From NCBI GenBank assembly GCA_016290295.1, contig JAEETJ010000001.1:62001-126000 (forward strand): DNA of 64,000 nucleotides, written 5' to 3'. The notes below the pieces were generated by a model. That model did not search any database, was not told where the DNA came from, and saw only the letters and a program-made list of their open reading frames with translations. This DNA comes from Bacteroidales bacterium. GTDB taxonomy: Bacteria; Bacteroidota; Bacteroidia; Bacteroidales; WCHB1-69. Both the position numbers and the translations under genes were made by a program. The stretch's first letter is position 1. Each line of letters opens with the position of its first letter. Below are positions 5,524-61,870 of this stretch, piece by piece.

Positions 5524-7398
5524 ATGCGAGAGAGACTTTTCCGATACAGTTTCTTCCTACTGACACTCTTATGCGTGCATAGTGTCATGGGACAAGGACA
5601 GAACTATGACGGATGTCTCAGTCATGCTCAGCTATATGAACTTTACAGTGGCAATGTGCAAAGCATGGGGCAGATGATGGGACGACAGCGTTTTTTCATG
5701 GTATCCAACGACGATAATGTCACTTTTATGTGGCGTGGCGATACTATCGTGATGAACCTATGCAATTGGCAATTCGCCCAAGGTTTTAATGACATCTATG
5801 TCAACGCCTTTTATCAAGATGGTTTTTACAACTTTGTGGAATACAACACTACCGCTGCCTGTGCCAACAAATTGCTGCAAGAATGCAAAGAGAAATACAT
5901 GGAACAGTATGATGAAAATGATGAATTTGAAGAAGAAAAAATCATATCAGACAGTCTTGATCTCTTCCCCATCATTAAAAAAACATCCCTCCAACTAACT
6001 TTTAACTTCAAAGAAGGATATCAGATTCTCTTCCCAGAAGAAAACTCCGGCAACGATCAATTCCTGATTCAAATTTACAATCCCGCCAATTTCAATCAGC
6101 TGATAAGTCTAAGCAAAACGCAGTTGGAGCAACAGCTTCTTGCAAGACAAATCAAAGAGCGAACCATACTCAAGAACATCGCCGCAGCTGATTCTTTGGC
6201 TCAATTAGAAGAATTTCCCGCCGCTATTCAATTATTGGAAGATGTTTATGACCTGCTACCCGACTACATTCACACTGTGGATACAAAATTAGGAGCCATC
6301 AAAAAACAATACAAAGAAAAGAAAATCCGAGCCTATATTGAAAAGGGAGATAAACTTTACAATGCCGGCGATTATAACGGTGCTTTAGAGATGTATTCCA
6401 ATGTTTTGAAAGAAGACATCAACAATAAAAACGCGAAAGAACAGATTGAGAATATAAACAGAAAATTAGACATTCTGCACCAACGTGGACAAATCACATA
6501 CGAATATCGTGAGAGCAATCCACAAAATTACAGAGATTTCAGCGAAGCACTTGAAAATGAGCTTAACCAGCTGGTGGACAACACAAATGATGGTACCCTT
6601 AACTTGTCCTACTCCATTATCTTTGACACGATGGGGGTTAACCAGTCTTTTTACAACATCCTCCACTTCAACACTGTGGCCATCGACAAGAACTTGCCCA
6701 TATTGCAAAGCCGCATGTCCAACCTTTTGGGACATAAATCTTTACAACCCAGTTCACGTGAAGACATATACATACGTTCAGCCTCCACTTTCAACATCAA
6801 TTTGGACTGGGACAGCTACGAGCAGCTGGTCGTGAAGAAACGCAAGAGAATAGTCAACCAATCCTCATATGCACTCAACCCGTTGATAGAAGATGTTTTA
6901 CATAACGATCCCAAGATGTATTTTGGGAAATATTATTTTAACATCAAATCCAAAAGCTGCAATGATCAAGCTTACCATGACATTAGCTTGACCAAATATA
7001 AAACCGTTGGTGGCGAAGCCTTTGTATATGGCCTCTTCCCCGGTTTAGGCACTTTGATTGCCACACAAGGGAAGGAAGGTGCAACATGTATGGCATTATC
7101 ACTTGTTTTTTACGGAGGAGCCATTGCTTCATACGTGTTGTACAAGGATTATAAAAAACAGTATGACGAGACCTCCTCGACACTCGATGAAAAAAACGCC
7201 AAAAATTTGAACACCAAGAAGGAAGTATGCAAATGGGCAGCCATTGGCGGGGTCAGCATCGGCGGCAGCATTCAGTTGGGTGGTATGATCAAGGCCATGG
7301 TAAGAGGCATACAAAACAAAAAGCACTCGAAAGAACTGCGTCAGGCTTTACAAAACGAGCCTATAGAAATCAAAAAGGAAAATATTCATATTCAATAA
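5524..7398 (+). CDS. Secreted TPR-containing hypothetical protein with C-terminal TM region
   Basis: Signal peptide, TPR-like [30 protein letters not shown]; hydrophobic segment near C-terminus. Confidence 0.7.
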
Positions 7399-54231: not shown

Positions 54232-54286
54232 ATTTCTAGTAGGACTGTCTCATTGTGGCAGCCGATAATACATCAATAAATTAACA

Positions 54287-54345
54287 AAGGGGAGTCTCGC
54301 TGCGCTCGAGGGGAGTATCTCACTACCTGCTCAAGGGGAGTACCA
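54287..54345. repeat. CTCCCC-hairpin array (family F, copy 4, reverse orientation)
   Basis: AGGGGAGTCTCGCTGCGCTCGAGGGGAGTATCTCACTACCTGCTCAAGGGGAGTA. Confidence 0.82.
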
Positions 54346-55402
54346 CCCGGTACCCTCCCGTTTTCTTACTCCCTACATATTCCACACGACCCTGCTTTTT
54401 GAGTTCAAAGAGGCAGCGCTCGATAGTGCTCTGTGAGAAACCGGTCTCCGCGATAATATCCGCTGAATTGCAGTCCGGATGCTTTTCAATGTGGGACAAG
54501 ACCATCTTAATTTTCTCTTCCGGAGGTATGGCCGGTTTCCGCTTGGCTTTCGGGCCTGCCAATTCCTCGTGAACATTATCGTCGATCGTTCCAACTATTT
54601 CGCGCTGAAGACTTTCCGATATCCTTTTGGCAATCTCCTCCTTGGTTTTGGCTTCCAACTTGAAGGCGGTGGATTCATTTTCCCATGGCATCTTTTGCAT
54701 TACCACCTCATCCTCCTGACACGACTCAACATAGCGGAAAGGAACCAGCACGGTAGTCGTCAGGCGGATGAACTCCTCCTTTCCAAACAACTGCTCAAGA
54801 TGCCTCATGGAACCCAGACGTGTGTATTTTCTGTTTTGCACTGTATGGATTTCGGTGAAGTTTCCCTGCTGATGACAATAGAAAATGTCTTCGATGGGAA
54901 CCAACTGTATATCGTTATGTTCCTCAACAACATCAAGCATCCGAACATCTCGGTAAACAGTCCTCACCTCTTTTTCCAGAGACTGCTGGTAAAGCTGCCG
55001 CTCTCTGAGCAAGAAAGGAAATAAATTGAATGCAAGATTGCGCCCAAAAAGAGCTATCAGAGACTGTTCTATAAAATTAAAAGCACCAACAAACTCAATA
55101 ACTTCCGCATTACGTTCTTTAATGTAGGGATACGCAATGGCCATATCCAAAGTACTCGTTACAATAGCCATCAACACCAGTACCAACCAATAGATAATGT
55201 TCGGATATTTGTGACAAAGCCTCGGATAAAGCAGAAAGTAATTGATATACAATGATCCTAATAACAAAAGACATGCAAGACATTCTTTGAATGCACTGCC
55301 AGCGTACGGACGCAAGAAAGTATTACGGCCAAAATACCACAGCGTTATGGCGCAGAACAGAACATTGAGCAGAATGATGACAACTGTTTTCAGATTTTTC
55401 AT
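54323..55402 (-). CDS. Membrane-anchored LytTR-domain regulator with C-terminal winged helix
   Basis: About 4 hydrophobic helices; LytTR region DIQLVPIEDIFYCHQQGNFTEIHTVQNRKYTRLGSMRHLEQLFGKEEFIRL; C-term KIKMVLSHIEKHPDCNSADIIAETGFSQSTIERCLFELKKQGRVEYVG. Confidence 0.82.
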   Translation of the reverse strand: MKNLKTVVIILLNVLFCAITLWYFGRNTFLRPYAGSAFKECLACLLLLGSLYINYFLLYPRLCHKYPNIIYWLVLVLMAIVTSTLDMAIAYPYIKERNAEVIEFVGAFNFIEQSLIALFGRNLAFNLFPFLLRERQLYQQSLEKEVRTVYRDVRMLDVVEEHNDIQLVPIEDIFYCHQQGNFTEIHTVQNRKYTRLGSMRHLEQLFGKEEFIRLTTTVLVPFRYVESCQEDEVVMQKMPWENESTAFKLEAKTKEEIAKRISESLQREIVGTIDDNVHEELAGPKAKRKPAIPPEEKIKMVLSHIEKHPDCNSADIIAETGFSQSTIERCLFELKKQGRVEYVGSKKTGGYRVVLPLSR

Positions 55403-55474
55403 AGCGTTTTTGTGTTGAATACAGCGACAAAGATAGTCAATTTTGCGACACATTTCCCTCCAAAAATCGATTTA

Positions 55475-55510
55475 ATCCCTCACAAACAAGCTTTTTATCC
55501 CTCACAAACA
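55475..55510 (-). promoter_or_regulatory. Direct repeat pair TGTTTGTGAGGGAT (22-bp period), reverse orientation
   Basis: ATCCCTCACAAACA at 55475-55488 and 55497-55510. Confidence 0.7.
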
Positions 55511-55594
55511 TACATGTGCCGAAATTTAATAAAATCTTAATTATAAGTATTTTACACCCGTTTTTCAAAAGAACGGTTCCAACCACTTGTCATA

Positions 55595-55632
55595 TTTTGG
55601 CCAGGAGGGTTCATATTTTGGTTGTGAGGGAT
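55595..55632 (+). promoter_or_regulatory. Direct repeat pair TTTTGGyyrkGAGGGwT (21-bp period), forward orientation
   Basis: TTTTGGCCAGGAGGGTT at 55595 and TTTTGGTTGTGAGGGAT at 55616; second unit shares GTGAGGGATTAAAT with the inverted left pair. Confidence 0.7.
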
Positions 55633-55676
55633 TAAATAGTCCGCAAACTGATTGTATTTTTGCAATGAGAAATATA

Positions 55677-55799
55677 AAATTTGTAGCAACGAAAACATCA
55701 TTTACAAAACAATAAACCAAAATTATCATGAAAAAAAGACAATTTTTGATGATGACAGCACTCATCTGCTGCCTTGCACTGGTTTCGTGCAAAAAAGAA
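55677..55799 (+). repeat. Shared promoter/leader/signal-peptide module (copy 1)
   Basis: Gapless near-identity to 57756-57878 (about 4 mismatches by eye). Confidence 0.9.
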
Positions 55800-56771
55800 A
55801 ATGTCAACGGTCCTAACAATTCCAACGATCCGACCTCCGGACAAACCCATGTCTATGTTGCAGGCTCTACCTCTTCGTACGGTGACTATGGTCCAGCTGT
55901 GTGCTGGGTGGATGGCACCATGCAGACTCTTGATGCCAACGCATCCGATGCGGCTCTCGCAGTGTGCGTAAAAGGCAGTGACGTCTATTACGGTGGTAGC
56001 AATGGGGATCACCACCCGGTTATTTGGAAAAACAGCACCCCACAGGTATTGTCAAACGATGCAGGTTGCGTGACTAATCTCAAGACTGCAAATAACAAGC
56101 TTTACGCCTGTGGATATGTGAACAATAAACCTGTCTATTGGGTAGATGGACAGATGGTACAATTACCTGTCAATTCCGGTGACGAATATGCAATCATTCA
56201 AGCTAAGGCCATCTTTATCTCCGGAAATGATATATACGTGGCAGGCACAAAATATTTGAGCCAAAGTTCTGGTGATGGCGCTTATTTGTGGAAAAACGGT
56301 GTGTTGCAGATGTTGTCAGACAAACCCGCTGATGCTTGCGACGTTTGTGTCATTGGCAATACCGTTTATGTGGTAGGCAGCGAGGAGTATCAAAGTCCAG
56401 GCTATGAGGGTTTCCAAAAATCAGTGATGTGGGTTAACGGTGCCATTCGCGATATACAAGTCAACACAAGCCTGGGATCCAAAGCCATAGCTGTTGCCGA
56501 GTTGAACGGCAAACCTTACGTTGTGTTGGAAGGATGGGTAGGAGATGCATGGTATGGCAGCTACCAAGGGTTCGCATGGTATAATGAGCAGGTGACCAAC
56601 CTGTCAGCATGCCAGAGTCCCAAAGACGTGTTTGTTCATGGCAGTGATGTTTACATCGCGGGGATTAACAACACTAATTTGAGAAAAGCTGTTGTGCTAA
56701 AAAATCTCGCCAATGTAAATTTATCCACAACAACCACCTATAGCGCTGCCTATGCTGTTTTCGTGAAATAG
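55728..56771 (+). CDS. Lipoprotein with repeated propeller-like motifs, unknown function
   Basis: MKKRQFLMMTALICCLALVSCKKE; repeats VYVAGSTSSYGDYGPAVCWVDG / VYYGGSNGDHHPVIWKNS / LYACGYVNNKPVYWVDG / VYVVGSEEY...VMWVNG. Confidence 0.8.
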   Translation: MKKRQFLMMTALICCLALVSCKKENVNGPNNSNDPTSGQTHVYVAGSTSSYGDYGPAVCWVDGTMQTLDANASDAALAVCVKGSDVYYGGSNGDHHPVIWKNSTPQVLSNDAGCVTNLKTANNKLYACGYVNNKPVYWVDGQMVQLPVNSGDEYAIIQAKAIFISGNDIYVAGTKYLSQSSGDGAYLWKNGVLQMLSDKPADACDVCVIGNTVYVVGSEEYQSPGYEGFQKSVMWVNGAIRDIQVNTSLGSKAIAVAELNGKPYVVLEGWVGDAWYGSYQGFAWYNEQVTNLSACQSPKDVFVHGSDVYIAGINNTNLRKAVVLKNLANVNLSTTTTYSAAYAVFVK

Positions 56772-56786
56772 TTCGTACTCAAACTC

Positions 56787-57563
56787 TTATTTCACCGACA
56801 ACACAATAGGCTCGCCGGGATTGGACGGATTGCGCAGGGTGATGTAAGCGTCGTTCTGCTCCTGAATGGCATGCCTCATCACCAAAAAACTGCGGCCTAA
56901 CTGAACACACTCATCCCCAATTAACTCCTTGATCTCCTTCAAAGTGGTAAGACTTGTATACTCATCCGTGCCCGTATAATAGTGGGTATAATTCTTCACC
57001 TGTTGACAATACAGTAATTGTGGTATCTCGATGAAACAATCCTTCTTTCCCCTATCTTTCACATGTAGCAGATGCAGTTGTTTGGCCGATTCTTTTTTCA
57101 TGCTTTCCTCCTCGCGAACAGCATTTTCATATAAACCAAGAAGAACGAAAAAAGCCAATAATGCTATATTTCGCATGGATTGAGTGATAATATCCTGCTT
57201 GAACAATTCGAACTGAATTTCAGAGGGGAAATTTGCATAAAAGAAATCATGTAATTTGGAATATAAAAAGCCCACTTCACAGCAACTCCAAACCAATGCG
57301 CTTCCTAATGCGATGATAAAATATAAGGCATATTTTTTCTGCAACAAAAATTTTGGAATAAACAATAAATAATGAAGGTACAGAAATAATAATACAAAAA
57401 TGGCGACCACATATTCCATATAGAATGGCTTAGGTATCAGCGGACGCATTAACGACATGTGCGAGAACACATAGATAAAACCGATGCAAATAATGAGATG
57501 CACCAACCATTTTCTTCCAAACTGTCTCAACGAGGAGAGGAAACCAGCCTTATCTTCGTCCAT
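56787..57563 (-). CDS. Membrane-anchored LytTR-like regulator
   Basis: Four hydrophobic helices, then CFIEIPQLLYCQQVKNYTHYYTGTDEYTSLTTLKEIKELIGDECVQLGRSFLVMRHAI (LytTR-like). Confidence 0.75.
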   Translation of the reverse strand: MDEDKAGFLSSLRQFGRKWLVHLIICIGFIYVFSHMSLMRPLIPKPFYMEYVVAIFVLLFLYLHYLLFIPKFLLQKKYALYFIIALGSALVWSCCEVGFLYSKLHDFFYANFPSEIQFELFKQDIITQSMRNIALLAFFVLLGLYENAVREEESMKKESAKQLHLLHVKDRGKKDCFIEIPQLLYCQQVKNYTHYYTGTDEYTSLTTLKEIKELIGDECVQLGRSFLVMRHAIQEQNDAYITLRNPSNPGEPIVLSVK

Positions 57564-57667
57564 ATTTCGTTTATTATCCTGTTTTTCATTGCAAATATAC
57601 TAAATTCCAAGCAAAAAAACAAAGGACAAAAATGATTTTTACAAGACTTTGGTTCTTTGTCGGTTAG

Positions 57668-57705
57668 GACGAAATATGGACGAAAACTTGACGAAATATG
57701 GACGA
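57668..57705. promoter_or_regulatory. Direct repeat pair GACGAAATATGGACGA (22-bp period)
   Basis: Exact 16-mers at 57668-57683 and 57690-57705. Confidence 0.75.
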
Positions 57706-57755
57706 GACACCCATTTTTTTCACCAAGACAAATAAAACATATACTGAAAAATAGT

Positions 57756-57878
57756 AAATTTGTAGCAACGAAAACATCATTTAAAAAACAATAAACCAAA
57801 ATTATCATGAAAAAAAGACAATTATTTATCATGACAGCACTCATCTGCTGCCTTGCACTGGTTTCGTGCAAAAAAGAA
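57756..57878 (+). repeat. Shared promoter/leader/signal-peptide module (copy 2)
   Basis: See copy 1 at 55677-55799; constant offset 2079. Confidence 0.9.
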
Positions 57879-58574
57879 GAAACGAACAACAATGGTAACA
57901 ATGACAACACCAATCCGCAAACGACGGGTACTGTGGTAAGCAATGCGGTAACCGATATCGACGGGAACCATTACAACGCAGTTTGGATTGGTGGTAAATT
58001 ATGGATGAAGGAGAATCTGAGAACCACAAAATTTCCTGACGGGGCCAACATTGAAGAACGCGTTGCACCCAATGGAGACGAAAGCAATGTGGCAATATAC
58101 GGCTACTTATACGAATGGAATGAGGTGATGCATGGAAGCAGTTCAAGCAATGCCAACCCGAGTGGGGTGCAGGGAATTTGTCCTAATGGCTGGCATGTGC
58201 CAAGTGAAGCCGAATGGAAGGAAATGATAGACTATGTCAAAAGTCAGACTCAATATTGCTTCAATGGACAAAGTCCGTTCATTGCCAAAGCTTTAGCTTC
58301 AAAAACAGGCTGGGAAACAAGTTCAAGTATTGGCAGTATTGGAAATAACCAAAGTGCTAATGATGCATTAGGTTTTTCGGCATACCCTGCTGGCTATACG
58401 TGGGGCGGTCCTAATTATTTTGGAACAAATGCAAATTTTTGGAGCGCCACGGGATCTGAGGAATCAGACTATTATTATGTATATAGTCCTTACCTTAGTA
58501 ACTTTTCCAGTTATGTAGAATCTAGATCAATGCCCAGAAGCACAGGTTGTTCTGTCCGTTGCATCCGCGATTAA
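57807..58574 (+). CDS. FISUMP-domain lipoprotein
   Basis: MKKRQLFIMTALICCLALVSCKKE; AVTDIDGNHYNAVWIGGKLWMKENLRTTKFPDG ... GVQGICPNGWHVPSEAEWKEM ... RSTGCSVRCIRD. Confidence 0.92.
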   Translation: MKKRQLFIMTALICCLALVSCKKEETNNNGNNDNTNPQTTGTVVSNAVTDIDGNHYNAVWIGGKLWMKENLRTTKFPDGANIEERVAPNGDESNVAIYGYLYEWNEVMHGSSSSNANPSGVQGICPNGWHVPSEAEWKEMIDYVKSQTQYCFNGQSPFIAKALASKTGWETSSSIGSIGNNQSANDALGFSAYPAGYTWGGPNYFGTNANFWSATGSEESDYYYVYSPYLSNFSSYVESRSMPRSTGCSVRCIRD

Positions 58575-58582
58575 AAAAATTG

Positions 58583-58591
58583 TATCTTTGC
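58583..58591 (+). promoter_or_regulatory. -7 box TATCTTTGC
   Basis: TAnnTTTGC upstream of 58683 ORF. Confidence 0.45.
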
Positions 58592-58682
58592 ACCATCGTT
58601 CTCTCCAAGGCATGTTCAATGGACTTCGCATCTTTGGTGAGAACGACGTGAAAAAGAAATAACAGAAGTCCGCAAGAATGTT

Positions 58683-59171
58683 ATGAAAAAGTTTGCATTT
58701 ATTACCTTTTGTCTGCTTCTCATGCAAGGCGTGAGCGCGCAGAAGTTCGTTGTGCCGGCAATTCCCGGCGACATCGAAAAATCAGAATATGCCCAGTACA
58801 CGCAGGATGCGATGAAATGCATCGACTGGCTGAAAACCCACTCACCGTCTGATTCAAAACGCAAAGATGTGGCCAGTTTCGCATTGTGGTGGCTTACGGG
58901 AACACCCGACGTACAGATGGTGCTCAACACCGATGTGGTGAAATTCGAGGACGGCAACCTGCTTCTTATGTTCCTTGGTGGCTGGGCTCAGTACGCCATC
59001 CAAAAAGAGGACGACAACCAGGTGGAAGGCTGTTATGCCGGCATAGAGACCGCCCTTAACTACTATGAGCAGTACAAAAAATCGCTCCCCAAAGACAAAG
59101 GTGCGGAACAGCTCCTCAAAATGAAGAACAAAGGGACATTAAAGGACTTTATTGCAAAAGGGTTGCAGTAA
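58683..59171 (+). CDS. Secreted hypothetical protein
   Basis: Signal peptide MKKFAFITFCLLLMQGVSAQ, complete ORF with promoter-like box upstream. Confidence 0.7.
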   Translation: MKKFAFITFCLLLMQGVSAQKFVVPAIPGDIEKSEYAQYTQDAMKCIDWLKTHSPSDSKRKDVASFALWWLTGTPDVQMVLNTDVVKFEDGNLLLMFLGGWAQYAIQKEDDNQVEGCYAGIETALNYYEQYKKSLPKDKGAEQLLKMKNKGTLKDFIAKGLQ

Positions 59172-59252
59172 GGTGATTGTGGTCTTGATGCACCATGTAA
59201 TCATTAACCATGAAACGAATCATAAAATAACCGAACATAATTTTCAAGAGAA

Positions 59253-60032
59253 GTGAAAAAGACAGTATTCTTCATCGTAACATTTTGTCTCTTATTGTGC
59301 ATTTGCTCTTGCAACAAAGACAAAAATAAAAAACACACATATGAGATCCTGAAAGATGTAGTTACAGATATTGATGGCAATCATTACGATGCTGTTAAAA
59401 TCGGTGATCAAATATGGATGATGCAGAATTTGAAAACCACCCGTTATGCGGATGGAACGGAAATACCATTGTCCATGGAGCCCACAGTCTATGAAGGTTT
59501 CAACTGGCCATCGGATGGACCATATCGCTGGGCACCCAATGATAACATATTGAATATGGGGAAATTTGGATGGTTATACAATTGGCAAGCTGTGGTGCAT
59601 AGTGGCAGCGGAAGCGACCGCAATCCAAGCGGAGTGCAAGGCGTATGCCCCGACGGATGGCATGTTCCAAGCGATGCGGAATGGACAGAACTCACCGATT
59701 ATGTGAGCAGCGACCGTAAAATGCGTAGTTATAACGCCGACTATGCCATTGCCAAGGCACTGGCCGCGCAAACCGATTGGGAACCCGGATCTGACAAAGC
59801 AGATGTGGGATACGATCTGTCTAAAAACAATGCCACAGGGTTCTCCGCATTGCCCGCAGGAATTGCAGGCTATCCATTTGTCACATTCGGCAGTCGTGGC
59901 TATTATTGGACCGCCACATACGCAGGTTATAACAGCGCTTATTGCAGGTCTTTTCACAGCAAAAACGACTGTGTGGATAGAGATTCCTGGGGAATGAAGG
60001 ATGGATTATCGGTACGTTGTATTAAAGATTGA
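59253..60032 (+). CDS. FISUMP-domain lipoprotein (GTG start)
   Basis: LLLCICSCNKD lipobox; DIDGNHYDAVKIGDQIWMMQNLKTTRYADG ... GVQGVCPDGWHVPSDAEW ... GLSVRCIKD. Confidence 0.9.
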   Translation: MKKTVFFIVTFCLLLCICSCNKDKNKKHTYEILKDVVTDIDGNHYDAVKIGDQIWMMQNLKTTRYADGTEIPLSMEPTVYEGFNWPSDGPYRWAPNDNILNMGKFGWLYNWQAVVHSGSGSDRNPSGVQGVCPDGWHVPSDAEWTELTDYVSSDRKMRSYNADYAIAKALAAQTDWEPGSDKADVGYDLSKNNATGFSALPAGIAGYPFVTFGSRGYYWTATYAGYNSAYCRSFHSKNDCVDRDSWGMKDGLSVRCIKD

Positions 60033-60139
60033 TATAGCGAATTGGTCAACAGAACAGCTTGAAAATCAGCGGCTATTATGTGAATTTTGATAAAAGGAAG
60101 GGAGATTACTCAATGGGAAAGGTTCGTTAATGAGAGAAT

Positions 60140-60357
60140 GTGCCGAAGGCACAATATCCTATTAACCCCGCACAAGCGACGAAGGAGTGCAGTGTGGGGT
60201 ATCGAGGCCGAATGTGTGATATGCGTGCGGAAGACACGCTACAACTGCACTCATAGTAGCGTACCTTCGGCACGCGGACTTATACCGTCAGCATCTCCAC
60301 CCCAAACTGCGGCCTACGGCCTTGTTAGGGGTTAATAGGATAACGTGCTTTCAGCAC
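60140..60357. repeat. ~218-bp imperfect palindromic element with 15-bp perfect inverted arms
   Basis: GTGCCGAAGGCAC-AA-TATCCTATTAACCCC (60140-60169) and reverse complement GTGCTGAAAGCAC-GT-TATCCTATTAACCCC (60328-60357); interior also pairs. Confidence 0.85.
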
Positions 60358-60403
60358 GCAACCTATGATACCACAAAGCAGCAAGGAAGTCCATATTTTT
60401 TTA

Positions 60404-61438: not shown

Positions 61439-61870
61439 ATGAATAAAATTTACCAAGAAGGACCTTTTGGTCCAATTTATCCTCAATTTGAAAGAAAACC
61501 CAAAAAGGCTATAAAACACTTGCTTAAAGTACAAAAAGGAGAATGTACTAAAGCTCTTTTCCGTGAAGACATTGGCTATATTGACATTGTTTGGGGTGAA
61601 AATGAACCTAAAACCAACAGGGGGTTTGGATTAAAACACATTTATGAAAAGCATGGGAATAGCATAAAAGCCTTGGGTTTTGAAATTGAGGATTTCATCC
61701 CGATAGTAGTGCAATTTGGTGAATTATCGTTAACTAAAACTGGCGAAGAGTATTTATTGGAATCAAATTATTTCAGAGTAGTCATCGAACGTAAGGCATT
61801 TGGATTTGACAAACAGTGGATATTAATCGCTTTTGATATATCTAAAAACCCACACCAAAATAAACAATGA
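61439..61870 (+). CDS. PBECR-like (phage-Barnase-EndoU-ColicinE5/D-RelE-like) nuclease-domain protein
   Basis: ALFREDIGYIDIVWGENEPKTNRGFGLKHIYEKHGNSI core, matching IGxIDxVWG...GLxHIxxKH. Confidence 0.65.
   Translation: MNKIYQEGPFGPIYPQFERKPKKAIKHLLKVQKGECTKALFREDIGYIDIVWGENEPKTNRGFGLKHIYEKHGNSIKALGFEIEDFIPIVVQFGELSLTKTGEEYLLESNYFRVVIERKAFGFDKQWILIAFDISKNPHQNKQ

Follow-up and report, generated by a model that had tools for sequence, protein, structure and literature searches.

Divergent cassettes of membrane LytTR-type regulators and lipoproteins in a Bacteroidales genome and its relatives

Genes and Features of the Locus

The window, i.e., the whole stretch of 64,000 nucleotides that was analyzed (G000:C58:62001-126000), comes from a Bacteroidales genome, G000, whose assembly comprises 3.19 Mb in 94 contigs. 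It holds two successive pairs of divergent genes, each made of a regulator and a lipoprotein (Table 1). The four open reading frames are found where an earlier reading of the letters, made without database searches (the sequence-only reading), had placed them.

Table 1. Genes, putative operators, and leaders of the two divergent pairs (window coordinates)
Feature	Position	Strand	Description
Regulator 1	54323..55402	-	4 TM helices, LytTR, C-terminal winged helix; open frame reaches 55453
Operator 1, regulator side (putative)	55471..55510	-	TGTTTGTGAGGGATWAAA x2, 22-bp register
Operator 1, lipoprotein side (putative)	55590..55637	+	TCATATTTTGGCCAGGAGGGT / TCATATTTTGGTTGTGAGGGATTAAAT, 21-bp register
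Leader 1	55669..55799	+	Promoter end, 5'UTR, and signal peptide of the lipoprotein; shares 95% identity with leader 2
Propeller lipoprotein	55728..56771	+	Predicted beta-propeller ectodomain (AlphaFold2, Foldseek)
Regulator 2	56787..57563	-	4 TM helices and LytTR (Pfam, TM segments); no winged helix
Operator 2, start-codon copy (putative)	57555..57571	-	AACGAAATATGGACGA, inverted copy overlapping the regulator-2 start codon
Operator 2, lipoprotein side (putative)	57668..57705	+	GACGAAATATGGACGA x2, 22 bp apart
Leader 2	57749..57878	+	Repeat of leader 1
FISUMP lipoprotein	57807..58574	+	PF09603 109.8 bits; TIGR02145 124.8 bits

Both regulators had been described as membrane proteins of the LytTR type, and the domain searches agree: they score 32.9 and 37.4 bits against LytTR (PF04397, cut-off 22.6), and four hydrophobic segments, predicted to be TM helices, lie N-terminal to this domain in each. 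TM bundle and LytTR domain thus stand in one chain, as in membrane one-component LytTR regulators, and a Pfam search found neither a kinase nor a receiver domain in the two proteins. A separate membrane inhibitor operon is not seen either, as no co-directional membrane-protein gene is adjacent, and both regulator genes look monocistronic. The C-terminal winged helix proposed for regulator 1 is borne out by a match to HTH_24 (23.9 bits, cut-off 21.9; residues 314-358 of the 376-aa frame), and it recurs in most paralogues. The frame of regulator 1 extends to an upstream ATG at 55453; the start at 55402, chosen by the sequence-only reading, is preferred because the paralogues in the alignment likewise begin at TM1.

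The facing genes encode lipoproteins whose ectodomains differ, as had been proposed. Each carries a lipoprotein signal peptide (...LALVSC, then KKE) with a visible LVSC lipobox. For the ectodomain of the first, Pfam gave no match; its AlphaFold2 model is all-beta (pLDDT 88, pTM 0.84), and Foldseek against the PDB retrieved the Kelch structure 2xn4 (E 3.3e-7) and BtuG-type lipoproteins (E 1.6e-5), with TM-scores of 0.40-0.56, so that the arrangement of the blades may differ from that of Kelch and BtuG. The second is a FISUMP protein. Both may be exposed at the surface and act as antigens, as was suggested before. The two genes had been said to share a signal peptide; the sharing is real, but what is shared is a DNA leader of 131 nt, 95% identical, beyond which the genes are unrelated. 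The leader occurs a third time, in a weaker form (77% over 92 nt), ahead of a FISUMP gene on contig C65 that has no LytTR neighbor.

Putative Operators between the Divergent Genes

Between the genes of each pair lie direct repeats, which the sequence-only reading had missed. They were found by a search that assumed no consensus and are regarded here as putative operators. The paired repeats stand ∼21-22 bp from start to start near the promoter, as LytTR sites do: 9-bp repeats 10-13 bp apart have been reported for LytTR sites (PMC11347149), and for those of Bacteroides TM-LytTR proteins, 11-bp repeats with 11 bp between them (PMC6193735). A register of 11/21/22 bp fits both. On the lipoprotein side, operator 1 consists of two copies, 21 bp apart, of a repeat that begins TCATATTTTGG..., and its last part repeats the regulator-side site in inverted orientation over 20 nt. 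Operator 2 has a degenerate copy between its two GACGAAATATGGACGA copies, which gives an 11-bp period. Measured from the lipoprotein ATG, operator 1 sits at -106 and operator 2 at -109 to -139 in most loci (-151/-173 in G004).

The same register is common among the divergent regions of this family. The best direct repeat is spaced by 11, 21, or 22 bp in 30 of 44 regions, compared with a mean of 4.3 and a maximum of 12 in dinucleotide shuffles (100 shuffles of the 44 regions) and with 9/95 for other intergenic regions taken as controls, a contrast that is partly post hoc because these spacings were picked after the spacing distribution had been viewed. The proportion is 21/32 once similar divergent regions are thinned and 47/92 in a wider, overlapping set; in 14 of the 44 regions, the best repeat is not in phase.

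Each operator is nearly private to its cassette. The operator-1 half-site, with at most one mismatch, occurs three times in the genome, always inside the first divergent pair. With up to two mismatches, the operator-2 half-site occurs three times in the second pair and twice as a weak tandem pair (C92:60817), upstream of a gene for a 360-aa secreted protein. Both operators are conserved in other genomes of the genus: operator 1 in G001, G002, and G007, where some copies carry one or two mismatches, and operator 2 in G000, G004, and two G007 loci, where the core is nearly invariant and the flanks diverge. Across the family, the similarity of operators rises with that of the LytTR domains (rho 0.44; 0/1000 permutations), also among pairs with less than 50% identity (rho 0.28), while random segments of neighboring DNA give values from -0.05 to 0.15; co-inheritance of adjacent DNA could lie behind part of this correlation.

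Recurrence in Relatives and the Usual Partner

LytTR matches occur at eleven places in the G000 genome. Four further proteins (C77, C73, C46, and C17), which had escaped the sequence-only reading, have the full architecture of four TM helices (4TM), LytTR domain, and winged helix, and each regulator gene is divergent from a gene for a lipoprotein or a secreted protein; on contig C46, the lipoprotein gene lies behind a 104-aa ORF fragment, which is the closest divergent frame. C91 encodes a different membrane LytTR protein with metabolic neighbors; therefore, the pairing with lipoproteins is not universal among membrane LytTR genes.

With an alignment of six regulators (E <= 1e-10), the family was detected in 36 of 80 related genomes, most of them MAGs; strong full-length matches are restricted to the same family of organisms. 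A script examined 45 distinct regulators, of which 26 face what is called here the GHC lipoprotein, five a FISUMP or propeller lipoprotein (not cleanly separable by the script, because the signal peptide is common to both), four another lipoprotein-like ORF, and ten something else or a contig end. Part of the last two groups reflects failures of gene calling: in G003, for example, a FISUMP lipoprotein lies ∼1 kb off.

The pairing seen in the window is real, but its partners are unusual, the standard one being the GHC lipoprotein. That FISUMP proteins are the usual partners was rejected: a 4TM-LytTR regulator stands opposite just two of the ∼33 FISUMP genes in the genome. The GHC lipoprotein has ∼165 aa and a GHxxxxCxGC... 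motif, and G-H, C, H, C, and C are among the residues that do not vary. It matched no family of Pfam, NCBIfam, or the PDB sequences, and its model, of moderate quality (pLDDT 73, pTM 0.53), had no PDB match at E <= 0.001. Its named homologues belong to uncultured Bacteroidales from the rumen, the abomasum, and horse feces, one being labeled Paludibacteraceae.

Recurrent adjacency of LytTR and lipoprotein genes in relatives was the check proposed with the original idea, and the adjacency is there: 70 of 75 GHC genes face a divergent 4TM-LytTR gene. This count joins 67 of 80 found by script (within 1.2 kb) to three more recognized by eye (L153, L158, and L169, whose ORF starts are over-extended) and leaves out five of the 80 at contig ends; these loci overlap the set of 45 regulators and are not independent samples of species. 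Of the remainder, three are co-directional, one is convergent, and one stands alone. Behind the GHC lipoprotein, a gene follows on the same strand in 55 of the 80 loci. These followers vary, a few in the wider list being housekeeping genes, and six of ten tested carry Por_Secre_tail, the T9SS sorting domain, with scores that reach the cut-off or miss it by no more than 0.1 bit.

The GHC lipoprotein also leads to a second type of regulator. In G013, G029, and G039 it is immediately followed by a gene for a protein with an N-terminal match to the 4TM region of the regulators, and in these genomes and G042 it occurs with a 4TM histidine kinase (PF06580). A response regulator made of receiver and LytTR domains adjoins the kinase in G013, G039, and, with another gene order, G042. 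In G013 and G029, the stop of the lipoprotein and the start of the next gene overlap by one base. Since the lipoprotein is linked to LytTR and kinase forms alike, the 4TM domain accompanies it whichever the output. Because the lipoprotein adjoins a 4TM kinase in other genera, the fused regulator resembles a two-component system that has collapsed into one chain; the one-component form may be a fusion of the kinase sensor with the LytTR domain of its partner.

Reassortment of the Cassettes among Sibling Species

The two pairs occupy a slot between a GH20 gene and the genes downstream, which was compared in nine genomes of the same genus (G000-G008); these are metagenome assemblies, and small contigs (5.2 kb in G001, 3.1 kb in G003) limit the reading at their ends. 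In G000, the slot contains regulator 1 with the propeller lipoprotein, followed by regulator 2 with the FISUMP lipoprotein. In G002, only regulator 1 and the propeller lipoprotein are present, and regulator 2 and the FISUMP gene are missing. In G001, regulator 1 faces a FISUMP gene, which is preceded by operator 1. G004 has operator 2 and the FISUMP gene without a regulator, and carries operator 2 once more in front of another gene. In G007, regulator 1 is interrupted by stops and remnants of operator 2 persist; regulator 2 and its operator, including the copy at the start codon, are found on another contig with 94% DNA identity, and the gene that they face there is a different one. None of the cassette genes lies beside GH20 in G003 and G006, and in G005 and G008, where GH20 is more diverged, none of these regulators is adjacent. 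The G000 slot also contains another FISUMP gene, at 59253-60032, which the sequence-only reading did not list.

The 5'UTR of the G001 FISUMP gene is 94% identical to that of G004 and 72-81% identical to the window leaders. It resembles that of G004 even though operator 1 stands before the one and operator 2 before the other; hence operator and regulator, leader, and ectodomain recombine separately. The same comparison rejects an origin of the G001 arrangement by deletion between the window leaders, drawn from BLAST coordinates. The cassettes had been called modular, each regulator controlling its own lipoprotein: the reassortment in sibling species bears out the modularity, but a regulator owns no particular lipoprotein, as operator 1 before a FISUMP gene in G001 illustrates. 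Diversification of the window FISUMP genes by a DGR was rejected, as no template match differing only at template adenines was found for them; another FISUMP gene of G000 does match the DGR template of this genome in that way.

Mechanism and Alternatives

How would such a cassette work? The reading favored here is that a membrane one-component LytTR regulator, with its private repeats, probably activates the facing lipoprotein gene and regulates its own. The 4TM bundle would sense an envelope signal, and the ligand may involve the lipoprotein. Tethered to the membrane, the LytTR domain would bind the tandem sites that front both promoters, and both the lipoprotein gene and the regulator gene would respond; in the wider family, secreted cargo behind the lipoprotein would be activated as well. 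Private operators would insulate the paralogous cassettes from one another, which would allow regulator, operator, leader, and lipoprotein to be reassorted. Local control of the neighboring lipoprotein, DNA binding, and sensing are predictions from the sequence; the first has indirect support from the conserved tandem operators in front of each promoter. Activation is favored over repression because the sites lie upstream of the promoter region of the lipoprotein and not over it, and the operator-2 copy over the start codon of regulator 2 suggests self-limitation.

Does the regulator instead control mainly itself, or a dispersed regulon, with lipoproteins beside it only because cassettes insert or travel as units? 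The G007 regulator 2, moved elsewhere with its operator to face a different gene, would agree with this, as would the G004 operator 2 without a regulator, its second copy before another gene, and the weak pair at C92:60817. Yet operators are also present on the lipoprotein side, at a nearly constant distance (-106 for operator 1 and -109 to -139 for most operator-2 loci), their half-sites are nearly absent from the rest of the genome, and the divergent pairing holds in 70 of 75 cases, all of which makes this explanation unlikely. It is also rather improbable that the cassettes are primarily a device for surface variation, with ectodomains swapped by homologous recombination and regulators of secondary importance: its simplest form, deletion between the window leaders, fails for G001 with its G004-like 5'UTR, and neither an invertible repeat nor a recombinase was recognized in the unit, even if the 131-nt leaders, 95% identical and in direct orientation around unrelated ectodomains, and the combinatorial content of the slot in sibling species, empty sites included, are what such a device would leave.

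A last alternative concerns the lipoprotein itself, which might assist the 4TM domain in sensing or inhibit it by feedback, i.e., be part of a fused, lipoprotein-gated LytTR system. The persistent linkage of the GHC lipoprotein to the 4TM domain, with LytTR or histidine kinase output, the one-base overlap in G013 and G029, and the conserved Cys and His residues all speak for it. However, propeller and FISUMP lipoproteins replace the GHC protein in the window, so that a specific contact must tolerate exchange, and direct contact is not simple if the lipoproteins reside in the outer membrane; gating is thus a possibility, though a doubtful one.

Relation to Known Systems

One-component membrane LytTR proteins are already known: HigX, CoxC, and those of Bacteroides LRS-like operons. 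LRS and the LRS-like operons (PMC6193735) share with the window cassettes the LytTR output, a membrane component, and ∼22-bp direct repeats upstream of the promoter, and the Bacteroides LRS-like regulators have several TM segments before LytTR. Unlike the cassettes, they combine a LytTR protein and a membrane inhibitor (an NfeD/DUF2154 protein in Bacteroides) in a co-directional operon; in the window, the regulator genes point away from lipoprotein genes and no gene for an inhibitor was detected. Most members of the regulator family also carry a winged helix. HigX of Caulobacter (PMC13384398), termed a possible "fused LRS" in the accessible text of its source, likewise joins LytTR to four TM helices at its N-terminus and has no periplasmic domain. 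There, however, its context is a toxin-antitoxin system and the envelope, and that text describes neither a lipoprotein partner nor paralogous cassettes with private operators. CoxC (PMC11347149), a one-component MHYT-LytTR regulator, also joins a membrane sensor to LytTR and uses a direct-repeat operator, but its seven-TM MHYT domain, which Pfam did not find in the window proteins, senses CO, and it is a repressor. In LytS/AgrC-type kinases (PF06580) with LytTR response regulators, the 4TM input is homologous, the output is LytTR, and in related genera they are linked to the same GHC lipoprotein family; they differ in being two proteins with a phosphorelay. The open literature that was searched contains no LytTR family that is divergently paired with lipoproteins, bears a winged helix, and is tied through the lipoprotein to a two-component relative.

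Outlook

A broader and quite tentative view is that these proteins form a lineage-expanded class, in which a kinase/response-regulator pair has collapsed into a 4TM-LytTR protein with private, helically phased operators; the facing lipoprotein would be exchangeable and would gate the regulator or report to it, with up to several insulated circuits from envelope to promoter in each genome that reassort between species. Few signals of membrane LytTR regulators are known, and a 4TM sensor that keeps to one lipoprotein family but serves two output modules narrows the site at which the signal acts. The private operators offer a natural orthogonal set of regulators and operators for studies of LytTR specificity, and in the GH20 slot, sibling species combine regulator, promoter, and lipoprotein in new pairings.

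FISUMP and GHC lipoprotein genes

The genome of the window holds 58 matches to the FISUMP domain, spread over roughly 33 genes, some of which (contigs C19 and C62) carry seven or eight such domains in tandem. Contig C65 carries a diversity-generating retroelement. Its variable repeat covers the terminal FISUMP domain of a protein of 507 aa; when this repeat is aligned with the template, the two differ at 27 positions, and in all 27 the template has an adenine.

Paralogues of the GHC lipoprotein, the usual divergent partner of the 4TM-LytTR regulators in relatives, differ in their N-terminal halves, whereas their C-terminal halves are almost identical (alignment A3; e.g., L092 and L093, both from G040), and this contrast suggests gene conversion within genomes. 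The very large secreted-looking proteins downstream of two GHC lipoproteins (1658–1991 aa) resemble RHS/YD-repeat proteins by eye; a Pfam search of both gave no match.

The slot and operator-2-like repeats

Two sibling species (G003 and G006) lack the entire slot that separates the GH20 gene from the conserved block downstream (window 54235-60260), and two other genomes of the genus (G002 and G007) retain the PBECR1-domain protein. A ~100-nt sequence (window 60254-60365), found several times across sibling loci, looks like a dispersed repeat.

Repeats like those of operator 2, predicted between regulator 2 and the FISUMP lipoprotein gene, are followed on contig C92 and in G004 by a common ~80-nt sequence, CTGCAAAA...ATGTGGCGAAATT.GCTATACAGGGGT. 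The genes downstream are unrelated, and repeats and sequence together are perhaps a travelling promoter segment.

Coordinates of the features discussed
Feature	Location	Remark
Reverse transcriptase (RT), C65 retroelement	L281:1291-2412	
Template, C65 retroelement	L282:3738	
Variable repeat, C65 retroelement	L282:3258	
PBECR1 phage-type nuclease domain protein	window 61439-61870	53.8 bits; slot end
Operator-2-like repeats	G000 C92:60817-60843	L251
Operator-2-like repeats	G004, L242 around 6250-6390	
Very large secreted-looking protein	L024:1256-7231	downstream of GHC lipoprotein
Very large secreted-looking protein	L090:2236-7209	downstream of GHC lipoprotein
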